In this document: positions 29,453 to 33,073 of the stretch, in pieces | Numbering within the stretch: position 1 is the first letter of the stretch | How the letters are laid out: each line of letters begins with the position of its first letter | Assembly (NCBI GenBank): GCA_903914535.1 | Contig: CAIWPG010000140.1 | Coordinates: forward strand, 1-64,000 | DNA from: an uncultured Oxalobacteraceae bacterium | GTDB lineage: Bacteria; Pseudomonadota; Gammaproteobacteria; Burkholderiales; Burkholderiaceae_D | DNA: 64,000 nucleotides | Direction of reading: 5' to 3' | Translations under genes and position numbers: made by a program | The notes under the pieces: generated by a model | The model's input: the letters and a program-made list of their open reading frames with translations, nothing else | What the model was told of the DNA's origin: nothing | The model's database searches: none

Positions 29453-29734
29453 TTACCTGTTTCGTGCGTGAAGACTCAGTCCAAGTGCTTTGACCAGGGT
29501 GATGATTGCTGAAAATTCAGGACTACCCTCTGGTGATATCAGTTGATCCAGGTATTCGTTTGATAAACCGGTTTCTTGTGCCAGCTTTGCTACGCCGTGC
29601 GCCCGGGCGATATCACCCAATATTTCGACAATAAGCGCAGGATCACCTTCTGAAACGCACATTTCAAAATGGGTAGTGCGGCCGCCGTTACGTAATTTTG
29701 TGGCAGAAGTCCGGTTTATTTTCAGGGCAGGCAT
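29453..29734 (-). CDS. HigA-type addiction module antidote protein (HTH)
   Basis: [58 protein letters not shown] matches the antidote protein pattern; start at MPALKIN preferred. Confidence 0.82.
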
Positions 29735-29894
29735 CGTTTGACTTTTCAATGTTAGACGGTAGTGTCGCACTGCACAGGAACTGTCGCGACTGAGCGAACA
29801 TTCAATTGTTTCTAATCCCGGATATTGAGCCATAACAACATGGCGCTGGCGACGCCAAGCTGTGACGGGTTGGTGTGTCCGGTTATCGCAGCTT

Positions 29895-30242
29895 TCATGC
29901 AGCAACCCAAACCTTCCCGTCGTTAATGCGTGCGGTGTATGTGCAAACGGAATGTTGCGGGGCTTCCAGGCATTCGCCGGTTCGTAAATCAAAGTGATGC
30001 TTGTAAATGGGTGAGGCAACGACAATGCGCTCTCCCAGATTGCCGATCAGCCCGCGTGACAATACGGCGGCATTGGAATTAGGGTCATAATTATCTATCG
30101 CAAATATACGGTCTTCCCCGTCATTGACATGAAAAACAGCGACTTGTTCACCGTTGATCAGTGCACACACTCCGGTGTTGGGAATAATTTCATCCAGATT
30201 GCAAACTGGAATCCAATTTTTTATGTGGTGCTTGCTGTGCAT
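29895..30242 (-). CDS. nirD: Nitrite reductase (NAD(P)H) small subunit
   Basis: Rieske-like fold protein, VCNLDEIIPNTGVCALINGEQVAVFHV; downstream of nirB. Confidence 0.92.
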   Translation of the reverse strand: MHSKHHIKNWIPVCNLDEIIPNTGVCALINGEQVAVFHVNDGEDRIFAIDNYDPNSNAAVLSRGLIGNLGERIVVASPIYKHHFDLRTGECLEAPQHSVCTYTARINDGKVWVAA

Positions 30243-32930: not shown

Positions 32931-32988
32931 AAAAATAAAAACGGCGCCCGTCCAAACAGGTGACATACCTGATTGGACGGGCGCCGTT
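32931..32988 (-). terminator. Leader terminator (attenuator) upstream of nirB
   Basis: 16-bp perfect stem AACGGCGCCCGTCCAA/TTGGACGGGCGCCGTT, inner CAGGT/ACCTG, then TTTTATTTTT on the minus strand. Confidence 0.88.
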
Positions 32989-32994
32989 GCCCGG

Positions 32995-33060
32995 GCAAGT
33001 CCTTCATTAGACTTGCGGAATTATTTATAAAATTATTTACAGAATCGTCATTGATCCAGT
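32995..33060 (-). promoter_or_regulatory. Putative ANTAR two-hairpin RNA element in the nirB leader
   Basis: P1 33060-33039 ACUGGAUC-AAUGAC-GAUUCUGU; P2 33016-32995 GCAAGUCU-AAUGAA-GGACUUGC; both hexaloops have A1 and G4. Confidence 0.8.
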
Positions 33061-33073
33061 TGCGTTCATGATC

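Follow-up and report, generated by a model that had tools for sequence, protein, structure and literature searches.

In the EutV/eut system (Ramesh et al. 2012, PMC3369931; structure PMC8934654), a cognate ANTAR protein acts on leader hairpins, one of which overlaps the terminator; their hexaloops begin with A and have G as the fourth base (A1/G4). This overlap is integral to the published ANTAR mechanism, in which the second hairpin must overlap the terminator (PMC3369931, PMC7496416). The linker between the dual eut hairpins measures 5-12 nt, and a linker of 3 or 14 nt impairs the element (PMC3369931); making the linker 20 nt longer abolishes antitermination by EutV (PMC8934654). The use that ANTAR proteins make of two hairpins is contested. 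A dimer has been placed on both (PMC3369931, PMC7496416), whereas the EutV model of 2022 has successive recruitment and transfer, in that a recruitment hairpin catches the dimer and passes it to the antitermination hairpin (PMC8934654).

Nitrate assimilation genes are already known to be governed by switches of this type, in the nasF/NasR and NalA/NasT systems. Klebsiella oxytoca NasR, which exerts nitrate-responsive antitermination at nasF, is a one-component NIT-ANTAR protein for which a two-hairpin motif is reported to be enough for full binding, and SELEX gave a consensus of a closing C:G pair, A1 and G4 (PMC7496416). The Pseudomonas NalA leader (reviewed in PMC12830290) is a nirBD leader that is started by sigma54 and NtrC and is subject to NasT antitermination. 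In Paracoccus denitrificans, a NasT/NasS pair is combined with leader hairpins at nasA (PMC5424462, PMC3795266). The two hairpins, HI and HII, lie about 46 nt apart and only HI is critical, nasTS stands upstream of the operon, and NasT binds its own nasA leader (PMC3795266).

In this study, we examine the leader of a nirB gene cluster in a stretch of 64,000 nucleotides (the window) from an uncultured Oxalobacteraceae bacterium. We conclude that it is very probably an antitermination leader started by sigma54 and controlled by NasT, in which three hexaloop hairpins of ANTAR type, termed P1, P2 and P3, follow one another. It has in common with EutV/eut the A1/G4 hexaloops, a terminator-overlapping hairpin and a cognate ANTAR protein; with NalA a sigma54 promoter ahead of nitrite reductase genes and predicted NasT control; with nasF a predicted nitrate response of assimilation genes; and with Paracoccus the NasT/NasS pair and leader hairpins. 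In contrast to the two eut hairpins it has three, with P1 at the very 5' end, and its P2-P3 linker is 1-2 nt, combined with an 8-bp P2 stem, as compared to the 5-12 nt of eut. Unlike the Pseudomonas cluster, the operon ends in nasTS and has apparently lost narK.

Results

Three hexaloop hairpins precede nirB

The features of the locus are collected in Table 1. An earlier note on this DNA had described, on the minus strand, two hairpins with the A1/G4 hexaloops AAUGAC and AAUGAA and, 6 nt past the second, a terminator with a 16-bp stem and a U tract. The hairpins were correct to the base, and sequence and folding bore out the terminator. In the RNA fold of 33063-32931 (-59.8 kcal/mol, z = -7.4), P2 forms together with the 16-bp terminator and five base pairs in the upper part of P1; none of 200 dinucleotide shuffles was equally stable.

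Table 1. Features of the nirB leader and the genes it precedes, with positions in the window
Feature	Position	Strand	Description or basis
Two NtrC-like sites, inverted	33189-33173 and 33159-33138	minus	resemblance; near-palindrome, two arms of about 19 bp
sigma54 -24/-12 promoter	33089-33075	minus	TGGCACGGAATTTGC; exact consensus; predicted start near 33063
P1 hairpin	33060-33039	minus	ACUGGAUC-AAUGAC-GAUUCUGU; one U:U mismatch, one G.U pair; loop AAUGAC
P2 hairpin	33016-32995	minus	GCAAGUCU-AAUGAA-GGACUUGC; loop AAUGAA; U.G closing pair
P3 hairpin	32993-32978	minus	CGGGC-AACGGC-GCCCG; folding of partial transcript; switch conserved in relatives
Intrinsic terminator	32988-32931	minus	16-bp stem 32988-32940, U tract to 32931; RNA folding
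narK remnant, 26 codons (putative)	32918-32838	minus	between terminator and nirB; first codons resemble a narK start
nirB	32824-30287	minus	
nirD	30242-29895	minus	
nasA-type nitrate reductase fused to CysJ-like flavoprotein	29448-25324	minus	
nasT (receiver plus ANTAR)	25158-24583	minus	domain matches, EutV residue comparison
nasS (NrtA-like nitrate sensor)	24571-23510	minus	domain match

A transcript ending at 32976, in which the 3' strand of the terminator is absent, folds as P1, P2 and a third hairpin, P3. All three hairpins present an A1/G4 hexaloop on a short stem, with closing pairs of C:G in P1 and P3. Neither P1 nor P2 overlaps the terminator, and most of the 6 nt between the 3' end of P2 and the start of the terminator stem are part of P3. 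The 5' strand of the terminator consists of the P3 loop and the P3 3' strand, while the P3 5' strand lies outside it; base 32988 is the first of the P3 loop and also the first of the terminator stem, and P3 and the terminator are therefore mutually exclusive. Because the overlap with the terminator belongs to P3 and not to P2, P3 is predicted to act as the mutually exclusive antitermination hairpin demanded by the published ANTAR mechanism. The module that had been called complete is of the ANTAR/NasT kind, but as P1 plus P2 it is incomplete, since the third hairpin, the only one that overlaps the terminator, had been missed.

The P1-P2 linker had also been singled out as long. Its length of 22 nt (44 nt from loop to loop) stands, but it is probably not the linker of the canonical pair. 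The P2 and P3 loops are 20 nt apart, near the spacing that we estimate for the eut elements by adding up stems and linker. P2-P3 is therefore likely the canonical hairpin pair and P1 an extra element, which accounts for the apparent length of the P1-P2 linker.

The leader is predicted to start at a sigma54 promoter

By the usual sigma54 spacing, the predicted transcription start lies some three nt ahead of P1. About 45 loci retrieved through NasT have this promoter as well, equally far from their P1, and in the window's own genome this promoter followed by the hairpins was found at this leader only. The sole other match to the sigma54-plus-CAANGR pattern (C201) has no hairpins and an ATG a few bases after the promoter, and was rejected. 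The CGCACCATTTAAATGCG of the first NtrC-like site is identical in a relative, L100. Several NtrC-family activators are encoded in the 81% complete assembly of the own genome, none of them above the curated ntrC cut-off. In Burkholderia cenocepacia, nas genes are under NtrC control: mutation of ntrC strongly lowers nirB, nasT and the nitrate transporter (PMC5491218).

A NasT/NasS pair is encoded in the same gene cluster

As had been noted from the sequence, nasT and nasS lie at the 3' end of the gene cluster. A receiver-ANTAR protein (PF00072, PF03861) adjoins an NrtA-like binding protein (PF13379). NasT is identical to EutV (6wsh) at R142, K143, K149, E160, Y164 and M172, which are most of the RNA-contact residues, and has R for EutV K147. 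Counted against the NasT reading are the replacement of EutV N173, R175 and R177 by K, G and K, and the U.G closing pair of P2 as compared to the C:G of the NasR SELEX consensus; this U.G recurs among relatives. The NasT receiver has Asp at the position of the conserved lysine, which suggests that NasT may be governed by NasS rather than by phosphorylation.

Could the structure instead escape NasT control, either as an attenuator that acts constitutively or as a plain 3' end? The terminator is strong, and NasT control at this locus is a prediction. Yet the hexaloops are conserved, a cognate nasT and nasS are present, and the same leader precedes nitrate genes in NasT-bearing genomes, all of which leaves this alternative scarcely plausible. 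NasT antitermination, as the earlier note had proposed it, is well supported by the hexaloops, the covarying stems (see below), nasT and nasS, the sigma54 start and the position of the leader before the nitrate transporter genes of relatives.

When the interval from nasA to nasT was scanned on the minus strand, no candidate promoter or terminator passed, a result compatible both with joint and with separate transcription of nasTS. If co-transcribed with nirBD-nasA, nasTS would come under the same switch, and the suggested feedback of nasTS on their own expression is compatible with the sequence. An ORF with the C-terminal part of an HI1420-type addiction-module antidote domain (29453-30025, minus strand) lies between nirD and nasA; a related locus (L002) has no ORF of its size in that interval. 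Within the own genus NasT is found in one of five genomes, the window's own, and the nearest NasT (94% identity) is that of Glaciimonas. This distribution of the nasT cluster in the genus may reflect transfer or repeated loss.

The hairpins are conserved in relatives

A covariance model was made from nine relatives. Because MAFFT misplaced the 3' strand of P2 when the window was included, the window was left out of the model, and stems anchored on their loops served for the counting of covariation. In the covariance search that had been proposed for this leader, the relatives-only model found the window leader as its sole match in 64 kb (E = 2.1e-5). The same model matched 45 of 196 genomes of the family, 152 of which encode an ANTAR protein, and 13 of 369 genomes in a class-wide sample. 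Against the whole own genome it gave no match, not even the window's leader, probably because the first look of that search is coarse, and the result therefore carries no information on further targets there. In an Rfam scan of the window and 20 related loci (4227 families), the leader had no match at gathering score; weak matches to ncS035 and rli56, far below threshold, were rejected.

Covariation support in related genomes, which the note had made a test of its reading, is present. Across a non-redundant set of 39 triple leaders, many pair types occur in the stems of P1 and P2, and pairing exceeds that of column shuffles at most variable positions. The pairing percentages themselves are inflated by the picking of paired hairpins, and the argument consists of the shuffle controls and of positions outside the selection. 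At such positions, the closing C:G is kept in 38/39 (P1) and 37/39 (P2) leaders and loop A2 in 38/39 (P1) and 35/39 (P2). Between the window and L100, two pairs of P2 and one of P3 are fully compensated.

For P3, we scanned for sigma54 promoters followed by a hexaloop, its sequence left free, whose loop forms the terminator 5' strand; among the true leaders returned, the P3 loops are AANGRN. These data bear on a rival arrangement, in which NasT would sit on P1 and P2 only, as on a canonical dual module, and crowd the adjacent terminator indirectly, P3 being a by-product of the terminator sequence. In its favor, the stems of P1 and P2 are the longer ones and adjoin the terminator, which in any case restricts what sequence the P3 loop can have. 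However, the A1/G4 and closing C:G of P3 are conserved across families, its 5' strand retains pairing in relatives in spite of lying outside the terminator, and an overlapping hairpin is required in the published ANTAR elements. We therefore regard an action of P1 and P2 alone as very unlikely, and retain P3 as the predicted antitermination hairpin.

Leaders with two and with three hexaloops

A pattern of P3 plus terminator, blind to P1 and P2, was run on the 196 family and 369 class genomes and matched 99 and 49 of them, respectively; a reversed control gave few matches. The strict pattern misses the window because it wants a P3 stem of GAC/GTC, whereas the window has GGGC/GCCC. Pattern searches and earlier loci together yielded a non-redundant set of 101 leaders whose terminator is of the P3 type. 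P1, P2 and P3 are all present in 51 of these; 27 have an upstream hexaloop only at a greater distance, P1-like and with no canonical P2; 16 have a P2 partner with no detected P1; and in 7 no upstream hexaloop was detected, these class counts resting on simple pair scores with mononucleotide shuffles. Among leaders chosen by the P3 pattern alone, 24/56 are triple.

The third hexaloop is not obligatory, as Burkholderia sensu stricto, Cupriavidus and Pigmentiphaga have two. In Burkholderia sensu stricto (L021, L025-L050) the middle hairpin stands at the same position with a GCAA tetraloop (GCCCG-GCAA-CGGGC) and no A1/G4 hexaloop; Cupriavidus metallidurans has a larger loop there, also without A1/G4; and Pigmentiphaga has two hexaloops. 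The leaders of alphaproteobacterial-type NasT likewise have two in both examples.

In another reading, P2-P3 would be the entire functional NasT element, and P1 a stabiliser of the 5' end or a decoy resembling a NasT site. Consistently, P2-P3 loop spacing is tight (19-26 nt in 38/39 triple leaders) and P1-P2 spacing variable (24 to 54 nt), the 16 leaders cited above have a P2 with no detected P1, and where P1 would stand, L154 and L158 carry upstream sequence of a different kind. Against it, P1 loops retain A1, A2, G4 and the closing C:G, P1 stems covary, and in the 27 leaders without a canonical P2 it is the distant P1-like hexaloop that is present. On balance a non-functional P1 is rather unlikely, and we favor a leader in which all three hexaloops would be read by NasT.

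To judge from its distribution in these genomes, the three-hexaloop leader is a widespread variant, and apparently an undescribed one: no description of the architecture was found in the literature searched, where the NalA system was represented by a review (PMC12830290). A few loops have G at position 1 with G4 kept (GACGAA, GACGCA; P1 of L005, P2 of L116 and L123) and provide a natural test of the loop bases; they agree with the EutV structure, where the contact is G4 and not A1 (PMC8934654).

The leader formerly preceded narK

In relatives, the leader stands before narK, another transporter gene or an nrtA-like gene. The order in Cupriavidus metallidurans is leader, narK, nirB, and the DNA alignment of the window with L100, L111 and L088 continues into their narK start. 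The own genome, 81% complete, yielded no narK orthologue, and narK appears to have been lost from the window locus by deletion. Since the leader of relatives precedes narK and narK start codons remain before nirB, these sequence comparisons make the nirB leader, by ancestry, a narK leader which has come to lie directly before nirB.

Discussion

Starting from the demonstrated RNA elements, P3/terminator exclusivity, promoter sequence, conservation, covariation and genes, we propose the following switch. Under nitrogen limitation, NtrC, presumably bound at the upstream sites, and sigma54 RNA polymerase would initiate just upstream of P1. When nitrate is absent, NasS would retain NasT, the 16-bp terminator would form instead of P3, and transcription would stop before nirB. 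In the presence of nitrate or nitrite, NasS is expected to free NasT, which may be captured by P1 and P2 as they emerge, in successive loading, and then stabilise P3. Polymerase would then continue into nirBD, nasA and probably nasTS.

More generally, it is possible, and we suggest it tentatively with less than even confidence, that a relay of three hexaloops, working while the RNA is being made, is common among the NasT leaders of proteobacteria. NasT would be loaded successively by two hairpins that serve for recruitment, or two dimers would be loaded, and would then pass to a short third hairpin that has to outcompete a strong terminator. If true, this would be a natural, tunable version of the transfer from recruitment to antitermination proposed for EutV. 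Natural leaders with two hexaloops, three hexaloops or an inert middle hairpin are a ready mutant series with which to discriminate between the dimer and transfer models, and the covariance model together with the P3-terminator pattern provides a means of annotating NasT targets, which are absent from Rfam. One related genome (G040) has two separate leaders within 3 kb (C1:560810 and C1:563437), which suggests multi-operon NasT regulons.
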